Source: Myxococcus fulvus (GTDB lineage Bacteria > Myxococcota > Myxococcia > Myxococcales > Myxococcaceae). From it: a stretch of DNA of 64,000 bases. Position 1 is the first letter of the stretch, and each line of letters starts with the position of its first letter. The position numbers were made by a program, and so were the translations under genes. Below the pieces are notes generated by a model. That model was not told the DNA's origin. It made no database searches and saw nothing but the letters and a program-made list of their open reading frames with translations. The stretch is taken from contig NZ_FOIB01000006.1 in assembly GCF_900111765.1 (NCBI RefSeq), positions 372,001-436,000 of the forward strand, in the 5' to 3' direction. Shown one piece after another: positions 916 to 42,223 of the stretch.

Positions 916-3159
916 TCACTGGCCGGTGTGCAGGAACTGGATGGCGCGCAGCAGCTCCGGGTCGGTTCCGGTGGCGATGTCCTGGACGGTGGGCGCCACC
1001 TCGATGTGCGGGACGATGCCCACGCCGTGGAAGCGGGACTGGTCGGGGAAGAGAATCCCCATGCCGGTGAAGCTGACGGCCATCTGCCCTGGCAGCAGCA
1101 GCCGGGTGACGTTGCCGTTCGTCCCCGCGCTGCGCCGGCCAATCACCGTCACGCGCTGGGCGCCGGTCAGCATGATGCTGAAGTTCTCCGCCGCCGACAC
1201 GGTGCGAGGGCCGACGAGCAGGACGATGGGGCCCGCGTAGGACGGGTTCGTCAGCGGCTGCCGCGTGTGGCCGGAGTCCCAGGTCTCGAAATGGTCGGGC
1301 CCGACCCAGATGGGATAGCGGAAGACGGGCGTGCGGAACGGCGTGGGGATGAGCCGGTCCGCGACCTCGTAGTGGCTGATGCCCGGATAGCCGCGCATGT
1401 CGACCACCAGCCCGCTCGCGCCTTGCGCCGCGGTGAGCGCCGCGCGGAAGGCGTCCGGTGAGGTGAGCACCTCGCTCGCCATGTTGAGGTAGTGCAGGTC
1501 CGGCGCGCCGAGGTCCGCGAGGCTGCCCGCGGCCCTTAGCGAGGGAGGACCACTCACCTGGTTGAGCAGCTCCACCGGCTGGGGCTGGACCTGGACGACG
1601 CGTGTGGTGCCATCCATGGCGCGAAGGCCGACGTCCATGGGGGCATTCATGATGAGGAGCCGGCGGATGGCCACGTCATGCAGGTAGCCCGGCGTGGCGG
1701 CCGAGGCGTGGGCCTGCTCCTCGGCGAGCCACTCCGACATGGGCGTGCCGTTGATGCTCACCAGCGTGTCACCCGGTTGCATGTCGGGGAGCGCGGAGCG
1801 GCGGATGATGGGCTGGCCCTGCACCTCCTCCAGGGAGACGGGGAAGAAGCCCGCCGGCGGGGGCCCTCCGTACATGGTGACGAAGCCGTGGCCGTCCTTC
1901 AGGACCTCGTTGAAGCGCAGCAGCAGTCGACGTGTCTGGTCGCGGTGGGTGACGGGGGTGGCGTCCACGCGGGCCAGCGTCTCCAGCAGGCGCCCGTCGA
2001 TGCCGTCTCCCACGATGTCGAAGTAGGGATAGAACAGCCGGGTGGCGCCATGGAGCGTGAGCAGGTCCGCGCGGGCGATGGCCGACGAGGCGCCGATGGG
2101 CGGGACGGCCTCGAGGGAGATGCGCTCGGGCGGTGCGTTGCGGACGACGGGCGTGGTCCGGTCCACGGCGGGCGGCGCGCCGAGCCAGGACGTGAGCTGG
2201 AGGGATTGCTCCGATGGGAGCGCCTCGGCGCTCAGCGCGCTCATGCCGAGGGTGGCGAGCGACAGGTCCGCGGGGAGGACATCTGGAATCGGGCCCTGGG
2301 CATCCTCGAGCCGCATGGTGCGCACGAGCAGTCCGCGTGAACTCACCGGCATCCACCTCGACTCGGCGACGGCCGCGTGGACGGGCGCGCCGATGAGCCA
2401 GGCCCGTCTGGCCATCCGCAGGTCCGCAGCGAAGCGCGCCGTGGCGGGGGCGAGCGTCGGCTCCGTCAACAGCGCGACGGGGAGCTGGGTCTGGCCCGTG
2501 GCGGCGTGGGGCTCGTGTGCCAGCCGGTCGATGTAGTTGCCATAGACGTTGTAGGGCGTCGTCTCGTCCAGCATCCCCACGTGTGCGCGGACGAGCCCGG
2601 CCAGGCGCTCGACGGGGGTGGTGCTGATGGCGCCGATGGCTCGGGCCAGGGCCTCTTCCAGGCCAGGGGCGGCGGGCAGTCCGCGCAGGTCGATGATGGC
2701 CGCGCGTGCGTGACGCGGGATGCGCAGCTCACCGGTGCCGGGGCGGATGAACGCGATGGGGCCCACGGTGAGGACGCGCGCCCTGGGGAGCGTCTTGCTG
2801 GTGACGTCGAGGGCACAGACGCCTTCCATCGTGCTGGCGTAGTGGCGGGTGGCCTCGGCCCAGTCCACGGTGCTTCCATTCAGGGCCATGACCAGGGACA
2901 GGTCCGCGTCGGTGTAGCTGGGGCCCACGCCGAAGAAGCGGACCTGTCCGTGCGCGGCGGACATGGCGACGGGGGCTGGCTGCGTCGCCGCGGGGCCGGC
3001 CCGGCCGAAGTCGCACCATTCCTCGGGTGGAGGGAACTGTGATTGCGCGCCCGCGCTCCCTCCCATCAACGAGAGGAGGCTCGCGGTGAGCAGGGGATGA
3101 CGGCGCGCACGACGAGCCCACGAGGCGCCGCGCGCGGCGCCCTTCTGGATGAACGACAT
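916..3159 (-). CDS. Secreted S41-family peptidase with two S41-like halves
   Basis: A 747-aa exported protein. The ATG at 3159 is preceded by GGGAGG 11 nt upstream, and the N-terminus is an Arg-rich, hydrophobic signal peptide ending near GGSAGAQ. The C-terminal half has a PDZ-like stretch (GDTLVSINGTPMSEW) and an S41 tail-protease core: LVVDMRGYPG, then VGPRTVSAAENFS with the expected nucleophile Ser, then a RRSAGTNG strand. The N-terminal half repeats the pattern more loosely (AAIIDLRGLP, then VALLTEPTLAPATARFA) but lacks the Ser, so it looks like a degenerate duplicate. Role: probable periplasmic or extracellular proteolysis; substrate unknown. Confidence 0.85.
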   Translation of the reverse strand: MSFIQKGAARGASWARRARRHPLLTASLLSLMGGSAGAQSQFPPPEEWCDFGRAGPAATQPAPVAMSAAHGQVRFFGVGPSYTDADLSLVMALNGSTVDWAEATRHYASTMEGVCALDVTSKTLPRARVLTVGPIAFIRPGTGELRIPRHARAAIIDLRGLPAAPGLEEALARAIGAISTTPVERLAGLVRAHVGMLDETTPYNVYGNYIDRLAHEPHAATGQTQLPVALLTEPTLAPATARFAADLRMARRAWLIGAPVHAAVAESRWMPVSSRGLLVRTMRLEDAQGPIPDVLPADLSLATLGMSALSAEALPSEQSLQLTSWLGAPPAVDRTTPVVRNAPPERISLEAVPPIGASSAIARADLLTLHGATRLFYPYFDIVGDGIDGRLLETLARVDATPVTHRDQTRRLLLRFNEVLKDGHGFVTMYGGPPPAGFFPVSLEEVQGQPIIRRSALPDMQPGDTLVSINGTPMSEWLAEEQAHASAATPGYLHDVAIRRLLIMNAPMDVGLRAMDGTTRVVQVQPQPVELLNQVSGPPSLRAAGSLADLGAPDLHYLNMASEVLTSPDAFRAALTAAQGASGLVVDMRGYPGISHYEVADRLIPTPFRTPVFRYPIWVGPDHFETWDSGHTRQPLTNPSYAGPIVLLVGPRTVSAAENFSIMLTGAQRVTVIGRRSAGTNGNVTRLLLPGQMAVSFTGMGILFPDQSRFHGVGIVPHIEVAPTVQDIATGTDPELLRAIQFLHTGQ

Positions 3160-3499
3160 GTCTTGGATGACCTCCCAGACCCGGCCGGAATGGCTCATCA
3201 GGTCGGCCGGGAAACGCCACGCCGCGCGGCGCGATATCGCCGGGAATTCTCCGTCACTTCGCGCGGAAACTATTCCCGAACGACTTTGTCGACCGACGAC
3301 CCGAATACGAAGGGGGCTCCGTACAGGGGGGGCGAACGTCTGGGAATGACAAGACCGCATGGAGGCGGTGGGGCGAGCGCCCGTGCCGAGACATCCATGT
3401 CCGGTCGGGACCCGGCCGGGCGAGCGGTGGTGCTCACCCTGTGACTGGCGCAGCGCCTTCGTCGGACGACAGTAAAGAGGACGGAGGTCGTGAGACGGG
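3160..3499. other. Divergent intergenic region, S41 peptidase / fpg
   Basis: This 340-bp non-coding stretch holds the promoters of both flanking genes. A 7-bp inverted repeat (CCGGCCG at 3181-3187, CGGCCGG at 3204-3210) lies just upstream of the S41 start. I could not identify a convincing -35/-10 pair on either strand, and see no gene. Confidence 0.5.
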
Positions 3500-4354
3500 A
3501 TGGCCGAGGTCCCCGAAGTCGAAATCATCACGCGTGACTTGCGGCAGGCCGTCATCGGCCGGCGTATCGCCGACCTCGAGGTGCTCGCGCCCGCGGCGGT
3601 CCGCTTCCCCTCGCCGGACGACTTCGTCACGGCGCTCCGGGGCCGACGAATCGTCGACGCGCGGCGACGGGCCAAGTTCATCCTGTTGGGGCTCGATGAC
3701 GGACAGACGCTCGCCGTCCACTTCATGCTCTGGGGCGAGCTGTCATTGCGGCCCGAAGGTGCGGAGCGCCCCTCCGAGACGCTGGTCATCCTGACGCTGG
3801 AGGACGGCGAGGCGCTCTTCCTCACGGACACGCTGGGCTACGCGCGCGTGGCGGTGGGGCCCACGGCCGAACTGTGCGCGCGGTTGAAGCTGGAGGAGCT
3901 GGGGCCGGAGGTGCTCGACACGGCCTTCACGCCCGAGGTGCTCGCGCGCCGTCTCGGCCGACGCAGGAGCCCGCTCAAGACGGTGTTGCTCAACCAGCGC
4001 ATCATCGCCGGGCTGGGCAACCGCGACGCGGACGAGAGCCTGTGGCGCGCGGGACTCGACCCACGGCGTCTGGCGACCTCGCTGTCCCGCGACGAGGTGT
4101 CACGGTTGCACCAGGCGATGCGGACCGTGCTCGAGGAGGGGCTCGCGTTGCGAGGCACGCAGCGGGACTTGTTCGGCGTGAAGGGCAAGGCGAAGCACCG
4201 GCGCAACGTCTTCGAGCGCACCGGCGCCCCCTGTCCGAGCTGCACCACCCCCATCACCCACGAGCGCGTCGGCGGGAGGAACACGCACTGGTGCCCTCGC
4301 TGCCAGCCGGAGGAAGGCACCGCCACGGGGCCGACCCAGGGCGTCCTCTGGTAG
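3500..4354 (+). CDS. Fpg/Nei-family DNA glycosylase lacking the N-terminal Pro
   Basis: A 284-aa base-excision-repair glycosylase. The ATG at 3500 has GGAGG 12 nt upstream. The N-terminus MAEVPEVE matches the Fpg MPELPEVE motif, but residue 2, the catalytic Schiff-base Pro of Fpg and Nei, is Ala; the following Glu is kept. Also kept: the RRRAKFILLGL Lys segment, a helix-two-turn-helix region with GLGNRDADESLWRAGLDP (usually GNIYADE), and a C-terminal zinc finger CPSC...CPRC with the GR-N-T loop. It may be a glycosylase with altered lyase chemistry; NEIL3 shows that another N-terminal amine (Val) can act. The original mutM may lie elsewhere in the genome. Confidence 0.85.
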   Translation: MAEVPEVEIITRDLRQAVIGRRIADLEVLAPAAVRFPSPDDFVTALRGRRIVDARRRAKFILLGLDDGQTLAVHFMLWGELSLRPEGAERPSETLVILTLEDGEALFLTDTLGYARVAVGPTAELCARLKLEELGPEVLDTAFTPEVLARRLGRRRSPLKTVLLNQRIIAGLGNRDADESLWRAGLDPRRLATSLSRDEVSRLHQAMRTVLEEGLALRGTQRDLFGVKGKAKHRRNVFERTGAPCPSCTTPITHERVGGRNTHWCPRCQPEEGTATGPTQGVLW

Positions 4355-4450
4355 GGCGCCCATCGCCCGGGCTTCTCGCGCATGGCAGCAGGGCTTGTCC
4401 CCGGGACACCCCTGCTGCGCTTCCCGCCGACACGCTGTTATGAAGTGGCT

Positions 4451-4693
4451 GTGTCCGACGTCCCCGCGCCCGCACCGTCCGAGCTCGACTCCGCGCTGGC
4501 CCGCGCCAGTGAGGAGCTGGGCTTTCCCAGCTACTACCAATCCTGTGTGCGCCCGCTGCTGCGCAACCCGGAGGGCCGCTGGCCCCGCTGCTGTGGCGGC
4601 GGCTGCGAGCCGTGCGCCCAGACGCTCATCCAGGTGGCCCTGAGGACCCTGGAGCTGCTGGGCACTCCGCGCCAGGCACCCCTGCCGGACTGA
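4451..4693 (+). CDS. Small Cys-rich protein, oxidoreductase-like (CCGxGCxxC) type
   Basis: An 80-residue protein starting at GTG 4451 (upstream in-frame starts at GTG 4445 and ATG 4382 are possible). It carries PRCCGGGCEPC, matching the CCGxGCxxC signature of the small Oxidored-like family (PF09791), whose function is not established; the trailing aromatic residues of that family are not obvious here. It lies 9 bp upstream of the NtrC-type regulator on the same strand, suggesting co-transcription. Confidence 0.6.
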   Translation: MSDVPAPAPSELDSALARASEELGFPSYYQSCVRPLLRNPEGRWPRCCGGGCEPCAQTLIQVALRTLELLGTPRQAPLPD

Positions 4694-4702
4694 GCCTCCA
4701 CC

Positions 4703-6076
4703 ATGGCCCCCGCCCAGCCGCTGCTGCTCGTCGATGACGACGCCGCCTTCCGCAAGGTCTACGGCAGCCTGCTGCGTGACGCGGGCTACGAAGTGGTGGA
4801 GGCCGGCGACCGTCCCTCCGCACGCGCCGCCTTCGACGCGCGCGACTTCCCCCTGGTCCTGTTGGACTTGATGCTGCCGCCGGATGGCAGCGTCTCCGCG
4901 GGCCTGGAGGGGCTGGCCGCGCTGCTCGAGGCACGGCCCGGTGCCAAGGTCATCGTCGTCTCCGGCGCGGGTGACACCCGCCACTCGCTGGAGGCCATCC
5001 GCCTGGGCGCGCATGACTTCCTCACCAAGCCGGTGGACCCGGACGTGCTGCTCGTCGTCGTGCAGCGCGCGCTCGCCCGCGTCACGCTGGAGCGGCGCGT
5101 GGAGACGCTGCGCACGTCCCTGGAGCGCGCCTCGGCGGACGCGGCGATGGTGGGGCAGAGCGCCGCGTTCCTCGCCGCCGTGTCGCTGGCCGAGCGCGTG
5201 GCCGCCAGTGACTTGCCCGTCCTCGTCACGGGGGAGAACGGCACCGGCAAGGAGCTGCTCGCGCGCACCGTGCACCTCAAGAGCCGCAGACACGCGGGGC
5301 CCTTCATCCCCGTCAACTGCGGCGCGCTGCCGGAGACGCTGCTGGAGAGCGCGCTCTTCGGTCACGTGAAGGGCAGCTTCACCGGCGCGACGAAAGACCA
5401 TCGCGGGCTCTTCGCGGAGGCGGACGGCGGCACGCTGTTCCTCGATGAGCTCGGGGACATGACGCCCTCGCTCCAGGTCAAGGTGCTGCGCGCGCTGGAG
5501 ACCGGAGACCTCCTCCCGGTGGGCGCGGACCGCCCTGTCCACGTGGACGTGCGCCTCGTCACGGCCACGCACCGCGACCTGGGCCGCATGCTCCAGGAGG
5601 GCACCTTCCGCGAGGACCTCTACTGGCGCGTCAAGGGCGTGGAGGTCCGCCTGCCGCCCTTGCGCGAGCGCGCCTCCGACCTGCCGCTGCTCGCCAAGCA
5701 CTTCCTCAACCAGTGCGCGCACCTGTGTCCGGATGGCAGGGCACGGCTGTTGTCGGACGCCGCCGCGGAGGCGCTCGCCGCACACGGGTGGCCCGGCAAC
5801 CTGCGCGAGCTGCGCCACGAGATGCAGCGCGCGTCCGTGCTGGCCGGAGAGCGCCGCGAGCTCCAGCCCGAGGACCTGTCATTCACCGGCAGCGAGCGGC
5901 CGCGCGCGAGCACCTCGGGTGGCACCACCCTGGCCGCGAAGGTGGAGGCGCTGGAGCGGCGCGAAATCGAGAGCGCGCTGGAGCGCTGTCACAACAACCG
6001 CACGCACACCGCGGAGGCGCTCGGCCTGTCGCGGCAGGGGCTGCTCAAGAAGCTGGAGCGCTACGGCCTGACGTGA
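4703..6076 (+). CDS. NtrC-family sigma-54-dependent response regulator
   Basis: A 457-aa three-domain regulator. The receiver (about 5-120) has the acidic pair in LLVDDD, the phospho-acceptor Asp in LLDLMLPPDG and the Lys in FLTKPVD. The AAA+ domain (about 145-380) has Walker A GENGTGKE, a sigma-54 contact loop GSFTGA (the GAFTGA motif with Ser), Walker B GTLFLDELGD and an arginine-finger region FREDLYWRVKGVEV. The C-terminus is a Fis-type helix-turn-helix (NNRTHTAEALGLSRQGLLKKLERYGL). It should activate sigma-54 promoters when phosphorylated. No cognate histidine kinase is adjacent, which is common in myxobacteria. Confidence 0.95.
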   Translation: MAPAQPLLLVDDDAAFRKVYGSLLRDAGYEVVEAGDRPSARAAFDARDFPLVLLDLMLPPDGSVSAGLEGLAALLEARPGAKVIVVSGAGDTRHSLEAIRLGAHDFLTKPVDPDVLLVVVQRALARVTLERRVETLRTSLERASADAAMVGQSAAFLAAVSLAERVAASDLPVLVTGENGTGKELLARTVHLKSRRHAGPFIPVNCGALPETLLESALFGHVKGSFTGATKDHRGLFAEADGGTLFLDELGDMTPSLQVKVLRALETGDLLPVGADRPVHVDVRLVTATHRDLGRMLQEGTFREDLYWRVKGVEVRLPPLRERASDLPLLAKHFLNQCAHLCPDGRARLLSDAAAEALAAHGWPGNLRELRHEMQRASVLAGERRELQPEDLSFTGSERPRASTSGGTTLAAKVEALERREIESALERCHNNRTHTAEALGLSRQGLLKKLERYGLT

Positions 6077-34392: not shown

Positions 34393-35853
34393 ATGTCCCA
34401 TGCGCGCATCCGTTCGATGCTCCCGCTGCTCTGCCTCGTGACGCTGTCGTGCCTCGGCGGTGTCCGCCCGCGCGCGGCGAAGGACCCGGCGGCGCTGCGC
34501 TACAACCTCACCTACGTCCGCGAACCCACGCCCGCGCTCGACGTGGAGGTCGTCCTCGTCCGAGGCACGCCGCGCACCTTCCGCTTCACGCGCCCCGGCG
34601 GCGTGGACTCCGTCAGCGCATTCCGCGAGGACGGCGAGCGGCTCGACGTCCCGGTCCGCGACGGCCTGGTGCAGCTGCCCCGGGACATCCGCTTCCTGCG
34701 CTATCGCTATGCACTCGAGCCCCGTCGTCGTGGACACGGCTCGGACCTCTTCGCGGGGAGCGCCGAGGACGACGCGTGGCACCTCACGGGCCGCACGTAC
34801 CTCATCCGCCCCAACCTGGCGCCACCCGACCTTCGCGTGGAGCTCGTTGTCGAGGGCATCGATGCCCTGTTGCCCTGGCAACCGGATGACAAGGGCCTGT
34901 ACCACCTGCGCGCTGAGGACCTCGTCGACTCGGGGTTCCACGCCTTCGGCGGGCGACGGTGTCAGGTGGTCCTCCAGGACGCGGTGCTGGATGTCGCGGT
35001 GCTCGGCCACTTCACCCACCTCGACGACGCGCGGGTGTGTCACTGGCTGAAGCGGACCGCGGACGAAGTGCTCACCGTGCGCCGCGCCTTCCCGTATCCC
35101 CGGGTCACCGTGCGGGTCATCTCCGTCCCCGGACGCGACGGCCCCGGGCTCTTCGGCATGGTGCTGTGGAGTTCACCGCCCAGCATCTCGCTGCTCGTGG
35201 GACAGGACGCGACCGAAGCGTCGTTCGAGCGGGACTGGGTCGCGCTCCACGAGATGCTCCACCTCGCGCACCCCGCCATCCTCCCGCGCGTGCCGTGGTT
35301 GTCGGAGGGGCTCGCCACCTACCTCACGGAGATGGCGCAGGTCCGCTCGGGACGACAGAGCGCCCAGCGCGCCTGGGGCGAGCTGGTGGACGGCTTCGCG
35401 CGCGGCCGCGACGCGTCGCAAGCCCGCACCATGAAGGAGGTCGTCGCCGACAGTGACTTCTCGCCGGGCACCTATTGGACGGGCGCGCTCTTCGCGCTGC
35501 ATCTCGATGTGGAAATCCGCCGTGTCACTGGAAACCGACGTCACCTGGAGGATGTGTTGGAGTGGCTCGCGGCGCGGGGGAGCACGTCCACCTTCGGTGC
35601 CTTCGGCGTGGCGGTGGATGAGGTCGCGGGGCAGCCGCTGTTCGATGCGTTGCTCGCCCGCCACCTCGAGCGGCCGGCTTTTGTGGAGCAGGAAGGTTTG
35701 CTACAAGCGCTGGGCGTGACGACCGGCGCTGATGGCATCCAACTGGTGCCGGCCCGTGACAGCGCGCTGCGCGAGGCACTGGAAAGTGGTGGGTGTAACC
35801 CACGTGCGGGAAGTTGCGTATCCGATGCATCCGCGATTCATCGACATCCGTAG
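34393..35853 (+). CDS. Lipoprotein gluzincin metallopeptidase
   Basis: A 486-aa lipoprotein (ATG 34393; GTG 34390 possible; lipobox LVTLSC). Residues about 25-160 are a beta-rich N-domain like those of M1/M61 peptidases. The zinc motif is clear: VALHEMLHLAHPAILPRVPWLSEGLATYLTE split around HEMLH, with the third ligand Glu in SEGLATY 19 residues on. This HExxH-x18-E spacing is the gluzincin pattern. It acts in the periplasm or at the outer membrane. It lies 106 bp upstream of the RiPP precursor on the same strand, so a role in leader processing is possible but unproven. Confidence 0.8.
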   Translation: MSHARIRSMLPLLCLVTLSCLGGVRPRAAKDPAALRYNLTYVREPTPALDVEVVLVRGTPRTFRFTRPGGVDSVSAFREDGERLDVPVRDGLVQLPRDIRFLRYRYALEPRRRGHGSDLFAGSAEDDAWHLTGRTYLIRPNLAPPDLRVELVVEGIDALLPWQPDDKGLYHLRAEDLVDSGFHAFGGRRCQVVLQDAVLDVAVLGHFTHLDDARVCHWLKRTADEVLTVRRAFPYPRVTVRVISVPGRDGPGLFGMVLWSSPPSISLLVGQDATEASFERDWVALHEMLHLAHPAILPRVPWLSEGLATYLTEMAQVRSGRQSAQRAWGELVDGFARGRDASQARTMKEVVADSDFSPGTYWTGALFALHLDVEIRRVTGNRRHLEDVLEWLAARGSTSTFGAFGVAVDEVAGQPLFDALLARHLERPAFVEQEGLLQALGVTTGADGIQLVPARDSALREALESGGCNPRAGSCVSDASAIHRHP

Positions 35854-35959
35854 ATGAGGTCCGCCATGTCCAGAACGACGCTGGCGCTCATCGCGCTCCA
35901 GATGACTCGTGCGCTCGAGCAGTAACCCCCTCAACGCAGTACCGAAAGGAAGCAACCCC

Positions 35960-36226
35960 ATGAACGCGAAGGCTCTTGCGGCGATTGTCGGCACCCTGTC
36001 CCTGGCCTCCCTCGCCACCGGCTGTGCCTCCACCAAGTCCGCCGAGGCCCAGCCGGCCGCCGCGGAGAAGGGCGCCGAGGGCAGCTGTGGCGCGCAGAAG
36101 GCCGAGGGCGACAAGGGCGCCGAGGCGGGCTGCGGCGCGCAGAAGACCGACGGCACCGCCCCCGCCGCCACGCCGGAGAAGGGCACCGAGCACGCCTGCG
36201 GCGCGGGCGGCTGCGGCAAGAAGTAG
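35960..36226 (+). CDS. RiPP precursor with EGxCG-type repeats (HvfA/bufferin-like)
   Basis: An 88-aa protein with a signal peptide (NAKALAAIVGTLSLASLATG) and Cys22 placed as in a lipobox, although position -3 is Ala. The mature part is low-complexity with three imperfect repeats (E/D)KG(A/T)Exx-CG-A, around Cys43, Cys58 and Cys80, plus a final Cys85; every core Cys is followed by Gly (EGSCGAQK, EAGCGAQK, EHACGAGGCGKK). This matches signal-peptide-bearing precursors such as HvfA of Haemophilus, whose EGKCG Cys residues are oxidised by a DUF692 enzyme to give a copper-binding peptide. The DUF692 and DUF2063 genes follow at once, which supports the assignment. Confidence 0.85.
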   Translation: MNAKALAAIVGTLSLASLATGCASTKSAEAQPAAAEKGAEGSCGAQKAEGDKGAEAGCGAQKTDGTAPAATPEKGTEHACGAGGCGKK

Positions 36227-36253
36227 TCGTCACGGGCCGCATCCAGGCCCCCT

Positions 36254-36287
36254 CCGGGCGGTGGGAACAACAGCTCCCACCGCCCGG
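36254..36287 (+). terminator. Hairpin between RiPP precursor and enzyme genes
   Basis: CCGGGCGGTGGGA and its exact 13-bp complement flank an 8-nt loop, followed by TTTCG, 27 bp after the precursor stop and 32 bp before the DUF692 start. Read-through terminators in this position keep precursor levels above those of the enzymes in many RiPP operons. Confidence 0.7.
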
Positions 36288-36319
36288 TTTCGCTTCGACT
36301 CCGGAGGAGGTATCCCGCC

Positions 36320-37168
36320 GTGGTGGCGACGTACGCGCGAAGACACGGACTGAAGCCCCTGGGCGCGGGCATCGGCCTGCGCCGGAGCTTCTATGAGGAG
36401 CTGCCGCGCACGGAGCGCACGCTCGACTGGGTGGAGATCATCCCGGAGAACTTCCTGTCGCTCGGCGGTCGTCCCCAGCGCGCGCTGGACGCGTGCGTGG
36501 AGCGCTGGCCCGTGTTGCCGCACGGCGTGGGCCTGGACATCGGCGGGCCGGACGCGCTGGACGTGGACTACGTCACGGCCCTGGCCGCGCTGGTGAAGCG
36601 CGTGGACGCGCCGTTCTTCTCCGACCACCTGTGCTACTCGCGGCTGGGCGGCGTGTACCTGCACGACCTGTTGCCGCTGCCCTTCAGCGAGGCCGTGGTG
36701 GAGCACGTCGTGCCGCGCGTGCGCGAGGTGATGGCCCGCGTGGGCCGCCCCTTCCTGCTGGAGAACCCGAGCTACTACGCGAACATGCCCGGGGGCACGC
36801 TGAGCGAAGCGGACTTCCTGCGGCACGTGGTGGAGCAGGCGGACTGCGGCCTCCTCCTGGACGTGAACAACGTCTACGTCAACGCGCTCAACCACGGCTA
36901 CGACGCGCGCGCCTTCGTGGACGCGCTGCCGCTGGAGCGCGTGGTGCAGGTGCACCTCGCCGGCCACACGCGCTACCCCGACGTCATCATCGACACGCAC
37001 GGGGACCGCGTCTGTGACGACGTGTGGTCGCTGTATCGTTACGTGCTCGAGCGCACCGGCCCGGTGTCGACGCTCATCGAGTGGGACCAGGACATCCCGT
37101 CGATGACGGCCGTGCTGGACGAGGCGGACCAGGCGCGCGCCGTGCTCGGCGCCCCGGAGCGACGATGA
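36320..37168 (+). CDS. DUF692 multinuclear non-heme iron oxidase (MNIO)
   Basis: A 282-aa TIM-barrel enzyme with the GTG start at 36320 and GGAGGAGG 9 nt upstream. MNIO enzymes use two or three irons to oxidise Cys or amide groups in RiPP precursors (MbnB, TglH, HvfB). Metal ligands visible: His68 (LPHGVGLDIG), His103 (FFSDHLCYS), Glu149 (LLENPSYY), Asp181/Asn184 (LLDVNNVYVNALNHG, His192), His212/His216 (VHLAGH), Asp225/His227 (IDTHGD), Glu254/Asp256 (IEWDQDIP). All usual ligands are kept, so it should be active. Substrate is probably the upstream Cys-repeat protein; its stop overlaps the start of the partner gene. Confidence 0.92.
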   Translation: MVATYARRHGLKPLGAGIGLRRSFYEELPRTERTLDWVEIIPENFLSLGGRPQRALDACVERWPVLPHGVGLDIGGPDALDVDYVTALAALVKRVDAPFFSDHLCYSRLGGVYLHDLLPLPFSEAVVEHVVPRVREVMARVGRPFLLENPSYYANMPGGTLSEADFLRHVVEQADCGLLLDVNNVYVNALNHGYDARAFVDALPLERVVQVHLAGHTRYPDVIIDTHGDRVCDDVWSLYRYVLERTGPVSTLIEWDQDIPSMTAVLDEADQARAVLGAPERR

Positions 37169-37890
37169 AGCCCGAGCTGAAGCACTTCTTCGACGGCATG
37201 GGCGCCTACCTCGCGAAGCCGGGCACGGCGTCGCTGGAGCAGCTCTACGCCAGGCACCCGGGCTGGGACGCGCCCGCCCGGCGCGTGTCCATCTATGGCG
37301 ACTTCGTGCGAGGCCACGTGCGAGGCGCGGTGGAGAAGCTCTACCCGCTCCTGCGCCGCGCGGTGGGGCCGGAGGCGTGGACCTCGCTCGTGGAGGGCTA
37401 CACGCTGACGCGCCCCGCGCGGCACCACGAGGTGAACCGGCTGGGCGAGAGCTTCCCCGCGTTCATCGCGGACTCGCTCGTGTCCCACGGCCTGCCGCCC
37501 CACGCCGCCGAGCTCGCGCGCTTCGAGTGGACGGACTTCGCGGTGTTCTCGTCCCAGTCGCCATCGCCGGCCCGCGTGGAGGCGCTGACGCCGAACCCCA
37601 CCCTGGCCGTGCTGGAGCACACCTTCCGCCTCTGCGCGCACGTGCGGAGTCGGGGGGAGGGTGGGGCGCCCGAGCGCGGCGAAGAGCTGGCGCTCCTGTG
37701 GCGCCACCCCGTGGACCTGGTGACGTACTACCAGGAGGCCACGCCGCCCACGCTGCTCGTGCTGAAGATGGCGGTGGAGGGCCTGTCCGCGTCGGACGTG
37801 ACGGCGGCCACCGGGATGCCCGAGGCCGACGTCCTCGACGCGGTGGCTCGGCTCTCCCGCGACGGGCTCGTGCTCACGCCGGGCGGGTGA
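37165..37890 (+). CDS. DUF2063 partner protein of the MNIO enzyme
   Basis: A 241-aa protein whose ATG at 37165 overlaps the DUF692 stop (ATGA), indicating tight co-expression. The N-terminal half matches DUF2063 (LYARHPGWDAPARRVSIYGDFVRGHVRGAVEKLYPLLRR split, then HEVNRLGESFPAFIADS, LARFEWT). In HvfC, MbnC and TglI-type systems the partner binds the precursor and is needed for MNIO activity. The C-terminal part (about 150-241) is winged-helix-like (ASDVTAATGMPEADVLDAVARLSRDGLV). No DoxX-type fourth gene (as in hvfD) follows; the next gene is convergent. Confidence 0.88.
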   Translation: MKPELKHFFDGMGAYLAKPGTASLEQLYARHPGWDAPARRVSIYGDFVRGHVRGAVEKLYPLLRRAVGPEAWTSLVEGYTLTRPARHHEVNRLGESFPAFIADSLVSHGLPPHAAELARFEWTDFAVFSSQSPSPARVEALTPNPTLAVLEHTFRLCAHVRSRGEGGAPERGEELALLWRHPVDLVTYYQEATPPTLLVLKMAVEGLSASDVTAATGMPEADVLDAVARLSRDGLVLTPGG

Positions 37891-37899
37891 CGCGGGCCC

Positions 37900-38997
37900 T
37901 CAGTCGCGGACCGAGCACACGCGCCCGTCCAGGGTGTCCTCGCAGCGCGAGGCGCCCGGGCAGTCCAGGTCCTCGACGCACGGCACGGTGCACTGGCGCT
38001 CCACGCACAGGCCCGTGGACATGCCCAGCCCCTGGCAGCGCTCGTCGTCCGCGCACTCCGCGCCGAACTGCAAGAGCGCGCTGCAGCTCAGGAAGCGCTG
38101 CGTGTCCGGCAGGCAGTTGCCCGCCTGGCAGGTGAAGCCCGCCTCGCAGCGGCTCGCGGCCAGGTCGTCCTCGTCCACCGTCTCCGTGCACGACTTCACG
38201 CACGTCGGCCCGCCACCGACGAGCAGCATGCACGCGGAGCCATCATCACAGCTGCGGCCATTCACGCACGCGCCGCACTGGGGGCCGTTCGCGGTGCAGC
38301 GGAAGCCCTTGCACGTCATGTCCCCGCCGCACTGGTCGTCCGCGACGCACTCCACGCACCGGCCACCCGGGCCGCACACCAGGCCGTCCTCGCAGCCCGT
38401 CGCGGCGCACCGGTTCACCAGGTCCGCGCGGGGCTGCAGCTGGATGCGCAGCTCCTTCTTCTCCCCCGCGCCGACACACGCCGAGGAGCGCACCTCCGGG
38501 AAGCCCATGCCGGCGATGGACAGCTCGTAGCACCCGTCCGGCAGGGGACCCACCCGCAGGCGCCCCTTGCCATCCAGTTGCAGCTGGTCCAGGTGCGTGC
38601 CCAGCACCGTCACCTCCACGCCCGCCACCCGCTCGCCCTGGGTGGACTTCGCGCGCATCTCCAGGAAGCCCGCAACCTTCGGCTCGACGCGCTCGACGTC
38701 GAGCGCCTTGCCCGCGGAGACCTTCACCTTCACCCGCGTCGCCTTCTCCTGCGTGGCGACGACGAACAGCTCGACGTCTCCGGAGGGGACCTTCTCCAGC
38801 TTGAAGCGTCCCTGGTCGTCCACCGTCGAGCGCAGCTCCGGCGCGCCCACCACCGACACCAGGGCGTGCGCCGGGTCGAACTCCGACAGCTGCCCTTCGA
38901 TGGTGCCCAGCCGCAGGGGCGCGTTCTCCAGGTTGCCGCACGCTCCCGCGCCCAGGGCCAGGAGGACTCCCAACGCGATGTGCAGTTTCGAGCGCAT
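37900..38997 (-). CDS. Cys-rich lipoprotein, last gene of the sigma-caspase operon
   Basis: A 365-aa lipoprotein (lipobox LALGAGACGN). The N-terminal half has carboxypeptidase-regulatory-like beta-sandwich repeats (VSVVGAPELRSTVDDQGRF, VEVTVLGTHLDQLQLDGKG, PDGCYELSIAGMGF). The C-terminal half is Cys-rich with about 25 Cys in myxobacterial CxxDxxCxxGxxC-like repeats (CEDGLVCGPGGRCVEC, CTETVDEDD...RCEAGFTCQAGNC). Such tails are typical of myxobacterial cell-surface proteins. Its start shares one base with the stop of the caspase gene (TGATG), so the two are translated together and may act together at the cell surface. Confidence 0.8.
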   Translation of the reverse strand: MRSKLHIALGVLLALGAGACGNLENAPLRLGTIEGQLSEFDPAHALVSVVGAPELRSTVDDQGRFKLEKVPSGDVELFVVATQEKATRVKVKVSAGKALDVERVEPKVAGFLEMRAKSTQGERVAGVEVTVLGTHLDQLQLDGKGRLRVGPLPDGCYELSIAGMGFPEVRSSACVGAGEKKELRIQLQPRADLVNRCAATGCEDGLVCGPGGRCVECVADDQCGGDMTCKGFRCTANGPQCGACVNGRSCDDGSACMLLVGGGPTCVKSCTETVDEDDLAASRCEAGFTCQAGNCLPDTQRFLSCSALLQFGAECADDERCQGLGMSTGLCVERQCTVPCVEDLDCPGASRCEDTLDGRVCSVRD

Positions 38998-40643
38998 CAA
39001 AAGCGGTACCCCACACCGGCCCAGCCGCCGGTGAAGCCCACGGCCTGTCCCTTCCCGTCCAACACCACGTACGTCAGCATGAGCTGCGCCTGTCCCACCA
39101 ACTCCAGGCGCTCTCCCACCCTCAGCACCACGCCTCCCACCACGCCGGGGCTGACCGTGAAGAAGCTCTGCCCGGCGGCGTACGTCTCCACATCGAAAGA
39201 CCGCCCCAGGTACAAGGTGGCCACACGCGGGCCGGCGAAGAGCGTCAGCCGCTCCCAGCGCCACAGGTAGGGCAGCGCCACGCCGGCGGAGAAGGTCGTG
39301 TAGCGGAAGGGGACCGCGTCCTCCGGGAGGAGCTGGAGCGAGCGCCGGCCCGTGCTGAAGCTGACATCGAACAGGAGCCCGAAGTCGCGCAGCGGACGGT
39401 CCTCCAGCCGCAGCGACACCGCCACCTCCGGCGCCATGGGCAACAGCTCCTCGCGGCTCTTCGCGTCCGCGAAGGTGAACATGCCGCCCAACAGCGACAG
39501 CGAGCGCCGGGGGAAGGCCTCCGACAACAACTGCTCCAGGGGCAGCCGCTCCCCTTCGCCCACCTCCACCTCGCGGCGCACCAGCACCGCGTCACCCTTG
39601 GTCAGCTCCACCGTGCGCTTGCCCGGCACCACCGCCGCCCCGCCCGGCAGCTCCGTGCGCGGCTCCCCGTCCACCTTGAGCGTGAAGCCATCCAGCCGCG
39701 GGTTGTAGGAGAACAGCTCGGGCCGGCCCGTGCGGGCGATGCTGCCCGACAGCACCACCGGGTCCGCGCCCACCTCCAGGATTTCCGCCGACGGCCGCTG
39801 CCGTCCTTCCGTGAAGGCGAACGTGCGCCGGCGCGCGTAGTCGTGCGCCTCCGTCGCGGTGACGGCCCCGTCCGCGTTGCGGTCCGCGCCGCCGCCCAGC
39901 CCCTCGACGAGGAAGTGCGTGTAGATGTCGTTCTGCAGCCCTTCGTCCTCGCGCGCCGTCTCACCCCAGTCACAGGCGGCGAACACCATGGACGCCCGCG
40001 AGGACTCCTCCAGCGGCCGCGCGTAGAAGCCGGACTTGATGCCCGACAGCTCCTTCTCCAGCTCCTTGGGCAACAGCGACTTGCCGTTGCCGCTGTGACA
40101 CGAGGCGAGCACCAACAGGCGCCGCCGGCTGGAGAGCGCGTCGAACTCCGCCTTCAGCGCGTCCATGGACAGCGCCGTCTGCGCGATGGCGCGATAGGAC
40201 GCGTCCCGCGTCACCAGGAAGCGGCGCAGCTCCCCGGTGGCGTCGCGCGCCAGCGTGCCGTGCGCGGAGAAGTAGACCACCACCACGTCATCCGGACGGT
40301 GCGCCTCCTTCCGCAGCTGCCTGAGCGCGGCGAGGATGGCCGCGCGCGTCGTCTCCTCCGGCCGCGTGAGCACGCGCACCTGGTCGAAGCGGCCCTTCGT
40401 GGGGTCCAGCATCGCCGCGGCCAGGTCCTTGGCGTCCTTCGACGGATAGCGCAGCCCCCGCCAATGAGGGTCGTCGAACTCGGAGATGCCCACGAGCAGC
40501 GCCATCCGCCGGGGCGTGTAGGCGCTGGAGAGCGCCTCCTCGTCGAGCCGCAGCGGCACGAGTCCGCCCTTCTCCGTCCCCTGGGACGAAGGAGTCGCGC
40601 ACGCCATCAGCGCCGCCAGCAGGATGAAGAGGAGGGGCCTCAC
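38997..40643 (-). CDS. Caspase-like lipoprotein with EF-hand and C-terminal beta-barrel
   Basis: A 548-aa protein. The N-terminus is a lipoprotein signal (LLAALMACAT). Residues about 45-300 are a peptidase C14-like caspase domain: RRMALLVGISEFDD, catalytic His128 in VVYFSAHGT and Cys182 in LASCHSGNGKS. An EF-hand loop DRNADGAVTATE (254-265) follows, as in some bacterial caspase-like proteins, and may make it calcium-dependent. Residues about 310-365 resemble a PEGA-like sandwich. Residues about 380-548 have amphipathic strands ending in WAGVGYRF, like an outer-membrane barrel. The combination predicts a periplasmic or surface protease tethered to the outer membrane. Weak ribosome site before GTG 40643; follows the anti-sigma gene. 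Confidence 0.82.
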   Translation of the reverse strand: MRPLLFILLAALMACATPSSQGTEKGGLVPLRLDEEALSSAYTPRRMALLVGISEFDDPHWRGLRYPSKDAKDLAAAMLDPTKGRFDQVRVLTRPEETTRAAILAALRQLRKEAHRPDDVVVVYFSAHGTLARDATGELRRFLVTRDASYRAIAQTALSMDALKAEFDALSSRRRLLVLASCHSGNGKSLLPKELEKELSGIKSGFYARPLEESSRASMVFAACDWGETAREDEGLQNDIYTHFLVEGLGGGADRNADGAVTATEAHDYARRRTFAFTEGRQRPSAEILEVGADPVVLSGSIARTGRPELFSYNPRLDGFTLKVDGEPRTELPGGAAVVPGKRTVELTKGDAVLVRREVEVGEGERLPLEQLLSEAFPRRSLSLLGGMFTFADAKSREELLPMAPEVAVSLRLEDRPLRDFGLLFDVSFSTGRRSLQLLPEDAVPFRYTTFSAGVALPYLWRWERLTLFAGPRVATLYLGRSFDVETYAAGQSFFTVSPGVVGGVVLRVGERLELVGQAQLMLTYVVLDGKGQAVGFTGGWAGVGYRF

Positions 40644-40653
40644 GGTGACTCGG

Positions 40654-41469
40654 TCAGCGCGGATTCTCGCCGCTTCCCACGCGCACGTCGAACCTCGTCA
40701 CGGCGAGCGTGCCTTGTTCCCATCGCTCACCTCCTCCCACCAGGACCCGCCGCACCTCGTCGGGCGAGGGCTCCAGGCCCGAGGGGGTGGCGGCCAGCCA
40801 CAACGTCACCGGCCCTGATTCGCCCTCCAGGCTGACGCCCGACAGGCCCTGCGGGTCGCGCAGGTCATGCGTCCCCGCCTCCAGCACGAAGGTGCCCAGG
40901 AGCTCCGGCTCCTGCTCGGCCCGCTGCTGGAAGAGCAGGCCCGTGCCCGCCTCGGTGGCGTGGTAGCGAAGGAGCAGCACGTCGCCCGCGGCCACCTGCG
41001 TGTCCGGGTCCAACCGCCGCAGGCTCCCATCCGCGCCGCGCGCCACCACCGCCAGCTCCAGGGCAATCTTCCCCACCTGGCCCTTCACGCCGGGCGCCAG
41101 CGAGTCCGTCCCCACCTCCACCCCCGCGTCCGACTGGCGCACCCGGGGCACCACCACCACGGCGAGCAGCGCCGCGGCCACCGCGCCCGCCACCACGCCC
41201 CAGCGCTGCGCGTCCCACCGGGGTGGTGCGCGAAGCTGCTTCTTCACCCGCGCCAGGCCCACCTCGTCCAAGGGGGCCTGGGGGCGCGGGGGCGAGAGCG
41301 CCAGGAGCACCGCGTCCACCCGCCCGTCCAGGAGGTCCGGGCCGGAGTGGGTGGCGAGGTAGCCCTCACACGCCTCACACGCGGTGGCCAGGTGCTCGCG
41401 GAAGTACGTCACCGCGTCCGGCTCACGACGGGCAAGGGCGCTGAGCGCCTCGTCATCCAGGTGTCTCAT
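40654..41469 (-). CDS. Anti-sigma factor, membrane-anchored
   Basis: A 271-aa protein encoded just after the ECF sigma factor (6-bp gap). The N-terminus has FREHLATACEACEGYL, a His26-x4-Cys31-x2-Cys34 motif like the zinc-binding anti-sigma ZAS motif (usually His-x3-Cys-x2-Cys), followed by a single membrane segment (WGVVAGAVAAALLAVVVVP). The C-terminal about 150 residues are periplasmic and beta-rich (DTQVAAGDVLLLRYHATEAGTG), similar to DUF4384-type regions. It should hold the sigma factor inactive until an envelope signal arrives. Confidence 0.78.
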   Translation of the reverse strand: MRHLDDEALSALARREPDAVTYFREHLATACEACEGYLATHSGPDLLDGRVDAVLLALSPPRPQAPLDEVGLARVKKQLRAPPRWDAQRWGVVAGAVAAALLAVVVVPRVRQSDAGVEVGTDSLAPGVKGQVGKIALELAVVARGADGSLRRLDPDTQVAAGDVLLLRYHATEAGTGLLFQQRAEQEPELLGTFVLEAGTHDLRDPQGLSGVSLEGESGPVTLWLAATPSGLEPSPDEVRRVLVGGGERWEQGTLAVTRFDVRVGSGENPR

Positions 41470-41475
41470 GACCTC

Positions 41476-42051
41476 TCACTCCCACCGACCGGCGAGCACT
41501 CGCCGCAGCAACTCTCTCTTGATACGGCCCCGGAAGCGCTCGAGTCTCATCGTCACGGCGCTTTTGCCCACGCCCATCTGCTCCGCAATCTCACGCGCGG
41601 ACAGCTCCCCTTCGATATAGAAAAGCTGCACTGTCCGCTTCTCCTCGCCCTCGGGCAGCTCGGCGATGAGCTGACGGACCACCTCGATGTCGCGCTCGAG
41701 CTGCAGGGACTCCGGCACGGGCGGCACCGCCTCGGGCTCCGGGTCCGCGATGTCGTCCTCCAGCCTCCGGAGGTGGGCCTTGCGCTCCAGCCGGGTGCGT
41801 GCCCGGTTGCGAGCGATGGACAAGAGCCATGCCTCGAAGGCCCCCGGCTCCTTCAGCCGGGGCAGCGCCCGGAACGCCCGGACGAAGGACTCCTGGATGA
41901 CGTCCTCCACCTCGTCCGAGTCCAGCGGGGCGAACCCCGCCACCAACCTCGCCACGAGGGGGCGGGTGCGCCGATACAGTTCACTGAAGGCGGAAGTCTC
42001 CCCACTCGCCGCGCGCCGTACCCACTCCGCCAGTCCCTCCGTGGAACCCAC
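41476..42051 (-). CDS. ECF-type RNA polymerase sigma factor
   Basis: A 191-aa sigma factor. GTG 42051 has GGAGG 4 nt upstream; GTG 42087 would add 12 residues. Region 2 is AFSELYRRTRPLVARLVAGF, DEVEDVIQESFVRAFRALPRL, FEAWLLSIARNRARTRLERK. Region 4 is ELPEGEEKRTVQLFYIEGELSAREIAEQMGVGKSAVTMRLERFRGRIKREL in outline, with a helix-turn-helix. It should direct transcription of its own operon (sigma, anti-sigma, caspase-like protein, Cys-rich lipoprotein). It is divergent from serC. Confidence 0.9.
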   Translation of the reverse strand: MGSTEGLAEWVRRAASGETSAFSELYRRTRPLVARLVAGFAPLDSDEVEDVIQESFVRAFRALPRLKEPGAFEAWLLSIARNRARTRLERKAHLRRLEDDIADPEPEAVPPVPESLQLERDIEVVRQLIAELPEGEEKRTVQLFYIEGELSAREIAEQMGVGKSAVTMRLERFRGRIKRELLRRVLAGRWE

Positions 42052-42121
42052 CTGACCTCCAGACCCCCGGGACGGCCCGGTGGCCACGCTGCATTTCCAG
42101 TCTCCCCGGGGCCGCTCCTGG

Positions 42122-42150
42122 AGGAAGCGGACGAGGGCGGGCCGCTTCCT
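42122..42150. promoter_or_regulatory. 9-bp inverted repeat in sigma/serC divergent region
   Basis: AGGAAGCGG (42122-42130) and CCGCTTCCT (42142-42150) form a perfect inverted repeat, centred about 85 bp from both starts. It could be an operator for either gene; no ECF promoter was confidently found. Confidence 0.35.
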
Positions 42151-42223
42151 ACTGGCTCCCGGGGGGGCGTCGGGAGGAAGAATGGGCCCCGCCGTTTCAT
42201 TTCGAAGAGGAGCCCTGTCCGCC

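Follow-up and report, generated by a model that had tools for sequence, protein, structure and literature searches.

A 64,000-nucleotide stretch of DNA from Myxococcus fulvus (the window) carries, on its forward strand at 35960-37890, genes for an 88-residue precursor peptide (A), an MNIO/DUF692 enzyme (B) and a DUF2063-RRE (PME1) partner (C). The explanation preferred here for the whole, with a probability of roughly 60%, is that this operon makes a lipid-anchored, oxazolin-like (captophorin-type) metal peptide, and that an M61-like lipoprotein peptidase encoded upstream belongs to the same system. The genes, their folds, the intact catalytic motifs, the conservation and the synteny are seen directly. 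Since the window precursor falls outside the EGKCG/HvfA criterion, the system is counted among the MNIO-PME1 operons, in a lipid-anchored form, and not with the HvfA family. Lipidation of MNIO peptides is already known from NedA of Neisseria dentiae, and its fixation across a whole family is, as far as found, new. In the literature available to the search, no paper names such an operon from Myxococcus, and none links a peptidase or YceI to MNIO operons.

The operon, its enzymes and its distribution

A sequence-only reading of this DNA had placed a HvfABC/bufferin-type RiPP operon here, an assignment supported by the domains and folds of the proteins, by synteny and by the conservation of the Cys motifs. 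Its three genes are present, as judged from frames and starts, and the last two do overlap by the 4 nucleotides ATGA (MNIO stop codon TGA at 37168, partner ATG at 37165). The description of the operon as complete holds for the three genes but not for the unit, as the conserved unit reaches upstream to 34393; that reading had overlooked the linked M61-like peptidase, a remnant of yceI and a hairpin after the precursor gene.

The MNIO (36320-37168, forward strand, 282 aa, GTG start to TGA) is HvfB/BufB-like and is preceded by a good ribosome-binding site, GGAGGAGGT. It matches PF05114 (1.2e-102) and the NCBIfam BufB profile NF050167 (319.7 bits, cut-off 310), and is ranked higher by NCBIfam as BufB than as HvfB. 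Its PDB relatives are 3BWW, TglH and MbnB. The motifs LDVNN (180-184) and DTH (225-227) are intact, and the site-3 iron ligands, whose identity is known from earlier work (PMC13419390), were placed by alignment to 3BWW. In the MNIO tree the enzyme groups with the HvfB-like 3BWW, apart from the DUF2282 and Buf2 MNIOs (99/100); the reference is a single, long-branched and incomplete sequence, and a sister relationship is not claimed for this reason.

The partner (37165-37890, forward strand, 241 aa, ATG to TGA) follows directly and holds a DUF2063 and an RRE-like domain. It matches PF09836 (7.2e-14) and reaches 59.5 bits against the HvfC profile NF050145, under the cut-off of 142. Its AlphaFold model (pLDDT 90.8) best matches 3DEE, the gonococcal PME1, followed by TglI and, weakly, MbnC. 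A further match, at 56 bits, is to the N-terminal part of the radical-SAM thio(seleno)oxazole maturase SbtM (TIGR04082); one recognition domain seems to be shared by two unrelated enzymes.

The same three genes are found in 28 named loci, with MNIO orthologues 73-93% identical, and such a conserved set is more than chance. MNIO matches occur in 85 of 96 Myxococcaceae genomes, including 27/27 in the genus of the window, and a scan of GTDB contigs locates orthologous operons in Myxococcus, Pyxidicoccus, Corallococcus, Citreicoccus, Hyalangium and Archangium, with M. xanthus among the carriers. One further record, titled Comamonas sp. KCTC 72670 (L013, BNCN01000006.1), holds the myxobacterial operon with an 88% identical MNIO and its synteny kept, and is probably mislabelled.

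Other MNIOs turned up alongside. The second one of the window's genome (L002, G000:C3:164850-168629) overlaps a TIGR04222 membrane protein (146 bits) ending in a Gly-rich tail with Cys-Gly (GGCGGCGGGGD), and a third, divergent MNIO domain (L003, G000:C7:253136-256849) opens a 607-aa frame with a long C-terminal extension. In L034, L036, L128 and L131, whose MNIOs form a clade of their own (97/97), lipoprotein-like precursors of about 200 aa lie just upstream of the MNIO, and in them GCPA repeats precede a cytochrome P460-like domain (in L131, 22.9 bits against a cut-off of 27); these proteins are a possible protein-sized MNIO substrate.

Next door, DoxX is absent and no metal gene is apparent. 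The lack of DoxX had already been observed, and extends to the whole contig: the eight DoxX matches of the genome all lie on other contigs. The convergent caspase operon noted before is real, but it stands next door in only 6 of the 28 loci and was rejected as a partner, being incidental as far as synteny tells. It lies on the minus strand at 37900-42180 and encodes an ECF sigma factor, a putative anti-sigma protein, an EACC1-type caspase lipoprotein and a lipoprotein with a carboxypeptidase-regulatory domain and a Cys-rich tail.

A precursor with a predicted lipoprotein signal

The precursor gene (35960-36226, forward strand, ATG to stop) is preceded by the ribosome-binding site GAAAGGAAG (35944-35952), and nearly all loci keep AAAGGAA ahead of the start. 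The earlier claim of a signal-peptide precursor with Cys-Gly repeats stands, with the refinement that the signal is predicted to be of the lipoprotein (SPII) type and not a plain Sec signal. The predicted lipoprotein signal and leader, residues 1-22 (35960-36025), ends with the lipobox LATGC at Cys22. By pattern, a lipobox closes the hydrophobic stretch in all 28 readable precursors, over which all precursor counts are given: LATGC in 25, LAAGC in two and LASGC in one. Position -3 is Ala here, where Leu is more usual. The precursor is hence predicted to be a lipoprotein, and its product a lipidated oxazolin-like peptide.

The signal is also the best conserved part of the protein. Across 14 diverse loci, mean pairwise identity is 84.5% for residues 1-22 and 54% for the rest of A; the lipoprotein signal of the neighboring peptidase is only 37% identical in the same loci, though the body of that protein reaches 60%. 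The leader codons show pS 0.36 and pN 0.09 (pN/pS 0.26). Conservation so far beyond that of the neighboring lipoprotein's signal suggests that this one probably doubles as the leader for the B and C enzymes. Such a constraint agrees with the case of HvfA, which HvfBC modifies efficiently only when the signal is present, its removal causing a sharp drop in modification (PMC13419390).

In the distant Myxococcota loci L030, L032, L033, L035, L112, L126 and L130 the precursors have ordinary signals without Cys. As the lipid-type operons form one clade in the MNIO tree (100/99), a single change from a plain to a lipoprotein signal is suggested. Regarding the final location, lipoproteins of M. xanthus are marked for the matrix by Ala at +7 of the mature form and for the inner membrane by Lys at +2 (PMC3222651). 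The mature precursor has Ala at +2 in 27/28 cases and at +7 in 25/28, which would fit sorting to the outer membrane or matrix, although in a protein rich in Ala throughout this is suggestive only.

The linked peptidase and the elements between the genes

The peptidase gene (34393-35853, forward strand) encodes a 486-aa lipoprotein with an HExxH-E site (H286, E287, H290, E305). Against PF05299 (M61, cut-off 22) the window copy scores 13.6 bits and its homologue in L032 29.2 bits. The AlphaFold model (pLDDT 86.9) has the M61/M1 aminopeptidase fold, with 4FGM (Z 26.9), 8J9C (Z 22.9) and 7XYO (Z 19.9) as matches, and the HExxH and distal Glu are invariant across 21 homologues.

This gene is single-copy in the window's genome. 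Of the 65 Myxococcaceae genomes that carry it, 60 have an MNIO no more than 2.6 kb away from it. Among the exceptions, G019, G027 and G048 have it at or near contig ends (in G019 the next genes are yceI and A), and G046 and G050 have it truly apart. The lipid-type clade has the order peptidase-A-B-C; in L112, L032 and L033 the peptidase comes last (A-B-C-peptidase), and in L030 it is divergent; outside Myxococcaceae the order is B-C-peptidase in L144 and L145 and peptidase-B-C in L150, and in L148 the peptidase stands beside C at a contig end. The signals vary in step: a Cys ends the peptidase signal in 25/25 lipid-type loci, and in L032, L033 and L112, with their plain-signal precursors, the peptidase apparently has a plain signal too, so that precursor and peptidase seem to have switched compartment together. 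Adjacency that recurs in different gene orders argues for a working link beyond shared ancestry, and the peptidase probably belongs to the same system as the operon.

It could also be that the lipidated metal-binding system is as described and the peptidase merely a conserved neighbor with an unrelated substrate, acting for instance in general peptide degradation. This is a possible reading, if a somewhat unlikely one. The four genomes of genus g7 and the second copies in Archangium keep A-B-C and lack the peptidase, while L146, L147, L149 and L151 (within the stretch examined), like G046 and G050, have a peptidase with no MNIO adjacent; the link, moreover, is one of gene position. Against a mere neighbor stand the adjacency in 60 of the 65 genomes, the single copy in the window's genome, the changed orders of L112, L032, L033, L030, L144, L145 and L150, and the apparent parallel switch of signal in both proteins. 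As an observation apart, L145 (G114) encodes at 1968-5357 a Buf2-like precursor with repeated CKGKG/CKGQ, an MNIO, its partner and an M61-like peptidase; the linkage may extend beyond oxazolin-type precursors.

Between peptidase and precursor, the window holds a 23-codon stub of a deleted yceI (35854-35925, forward strand; MRSAMSRTTLALIALQMTRALEQ). An intact yceI (PF04264) occupies the same place in about half of the loci, and other remnants are kept in L004 and L006; together with the stub, these indicate that yceI is being lost repeatedly. In the 3' extension of the peptidase frame lies an ECF-type promoter-like element, TGTAAC-N17-CGTA (35794-35820, forward strand). In most loci TGTAAC-N16/17-CGTA stands downstream of the peptidase gene, but it is missing from the M. 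xanthus group (L010, L011, L013, L028); strict matches number five genome-wide against one for a reversed control. A regulon was considered and rejected, as the other strict matches have no sigma-factor or copper gene behind them, and no regulator can be named.

The precursor and enzyme genes are separated by a terminator-like, G+C-rich hairpin of 14 bp (36255-36287, forward strand) with the T-containing tail TTTCGCTT, which recurs at this position in almost every locus, L026 being an exception. In the alignment 96.7% of cells are paired and three pairs show double changes; covariation is modest, 12 to 37 of 500 shuffles reaching the observed values, and the conserved place and form are the stronger argument. 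An Rfam search gave no match. The simplest reading would be a partial terminator giving more precursor than enzyme.

Core cysteines, proposed mechanism and related systems

The window precursor has cysteines at 22, 43, 58, 80 and 85, with four Cys-Gly in the repeats EGSCG, EAGCG, EHACG and AGGCG; Cys43, Cys58, Cys80 and Cys85 are the candidate modification sites. The absence of conserved Cys-Gly motifs among orthologues had been named beforehand as an outcome that would refute the earlier reading; the terminal motifs are in fact conserved, with C-x4-C and its cysteines exactly five residues apart in 28/28 precursors (for example EGSCGAGSCGAGSCGG). Internal Cys-Gly sites are present in some precursors and absent from others, some having Ser, Asn or Lys after the Cys, and the precursor of L008 is left with only two non-lipid cysteines. 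Before the Cys stand small residues (Ser, Gly, Ala) where oxazolins have Lys, and the repeated EGKCG motif is absent from the window precursor. The precursor of the MAG L012, on the other hand, has EGKCGEGKCGEGKCGG, with the canonical oxazolin repeat EGKCG three times, and scores 14.2 bits against the HvfA profile, below the cut-off of 19.5.

No profile in Pfam or NCBIfam, that of HvfA included, matches the window precursor. It consequently lacks the DUF2282 that defines Buf1, and it gives no match at E <= 10 to the Buf2 profile BufA2 (NF050166), which scores 97.6 on a plasmid Buf2 precursor for comparison. With its cysteines five residues apart and the EGKCG repeats of L012, the precursor resembles in sequence oxazolin/HvfA and is unlike the DUF2282 or Buf2 bufferins. 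As precursors of the lipid-type branch match no current profile, annotation misses them. A search for orphan precursors with the same leader elsewhere in the genome yielded none that was convincing.

In the mechanism proposed here, the modification, the lipidation, the location, the metal and the substrate of the peptidase are inferred. In the cytoplasm, the B-C complex would bind the precursor through its signal peptide, acting as the leader, and oxidize the C-terminal Cys-Gly cysteines, at least C80 and C85, most likely to 5-thiooxazoles with a loss of 4 Da each. In FonBC assays (PMC13097082) the residue before the Cys may be Ala or Thr instead of Lys, the one after it must be Gly or Ala, and a substrate needs two repeats. 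The terminal pair EHACG-AGGCG fits these substrate rules, and C43 and C58, as single sites, may by analogy be left unmodified. The modified precursor would then be exported by Sec, diacylated on Cys22 and cut by signal peptidase II, and the mature peptide would come to lie in the outer membrane or in the extracellular matrix, sequestering a soft metal, most likely copper. The hairpin probably holds the precursor in excess over the enzymes, and the peptidase, in the same compartment, would most likely trim, release or turn over the peptide. The lack of a profile for A, the Ala at -3 of the lipobox, the poor conservation of the internal cysteines, the higher BufB than HvfB score and the lack of DoxX and of an apparent metal gene beside the operon count against this explanation, as do the operons without a peptidase (genus g7, second copies in Archangium) and the genomes whose peptidase lies away from an MNIO.

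A different Cys modification by the MNIO, yielding a peptide for another metal or for redox or sulfur stress and not for copper, is rather unlikely. The small residues in place of Lys, the variable internal cysteines (with only two non-lipid ones in L008) and the absence of a copper gene next door would be in line with it, but the invariant terminal C-x4-C and the intact site-3 iron ligands are not, and the MNIO-PME1 products characterized to date carry 5-thiooxazole, those tested binding copper (PMC13097082). As the products tested so far bind copper, this is, by analogy, the best guess for the metal. Finally, that A is an ordinary Cys-rich lipoprotein, with B and C acting on another peptide, is highly improbable: A matches no profile and the hairpin parts it from B-C, but in each of the 28 loci A comes directly before B and carries the same leader sequence, no other gene of the genome shares that leader, and bufferin operons have this strict A-B-C order too (PMC12452194).

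The closest known systems to the lipid-anchored peptide proposed here are the EGKCG captophorins, namely HvfABC oxazolin, FonABC fontiphorin and gonophorin, which share the signal-peptide precursor, the MNIO, the PME1 and the A-B-C order, as well as a five-residue spacing of the cysteines, with small residues behind them, and, in the orthologue L012, EGKCG repeats. The window operon differs from them in its EGSCG/EAGCG/EHACG/AGGCG repeats, its lipoprotein signal, the lack of DoxX, the M61 peptidase and the hairpin after A. NedA, a DAG-RiPP, likewise combines an oxazolin-type precursor, a lipoprotein signal and an MNIO with its partner, and there lipidation (a triacylated oxazolin) and a loss of 4 Da per EGKCG site have been demonstrated (PMC12636315); here the arrangement is family-wide, in another phylum, mostly without EGKCG and with a linked peptidase. 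The bufferins Buf1 (DUF2282) and Buf2 are alike in the MNIO and DUF2063 partner, the Sec-exported precursor and the BufB score, but the window precursor is neither DUF2282 nor BufA2, and its MNIO falls outside those groups of the tree. The bulbicupramide clusters mmrABC of Microbulbifer are comparable in being near-universal in their genus, with a conserved leader and a variable core; theirs is a copper-binding EGKCG peptide, with no protease nearby and no report of a lipoprotein (PMC12538549).

The peptidase itself shares its fold and HExxH-E site with M61 glycyl aminopeptidases and M1 peptidases (4FGM, 8J9C, 7XYO; EryP, 7V9P), from which the window copy is set apart by its lipoprotein signal, its score under the Pfam cut-off and its link to an MNIO operon. 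EryP, a lanthipeptide zinc-metallopeptidase by its PDB title, offers a precedent for this superfold in RiPP biosynthesis. Whether a protease cleaves EGKCG-type peptides after export has been stated as open (PMC13097082), and an exported peptidase whose linkage recurs across Myxococcota makes that question testable in the model predator M. xanthus. In M. xanthus, copper builds up where predator and prey meet (PMC7010606). This contact zone would be a natural setting for the peptide, although the window shows no feature that connects the operon with copper. The fullest version of the proposal, a lipidated thiooxazole copper peptide of Myxococcaceae held in the outer membrane or matrix (Ala at +7) and freed or processed by a dedicated M61 lipoprotein peptidase, is doubtful in all its parts together. 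If true, the peptidase would be the first protease associated with captophorin-type peptides, and the peptide a possible copper buffer shared where predator and prey meet. A clear metal-resistance setting is seen for a relative on a plasmid of Pseudomonas mandelii (L137, 1-5792), where a Buf2-type MNIO operon is flanked on one side by genes for a heavy-metal P-type ATPase and a MerR regulator and on the other by a TolC gene.
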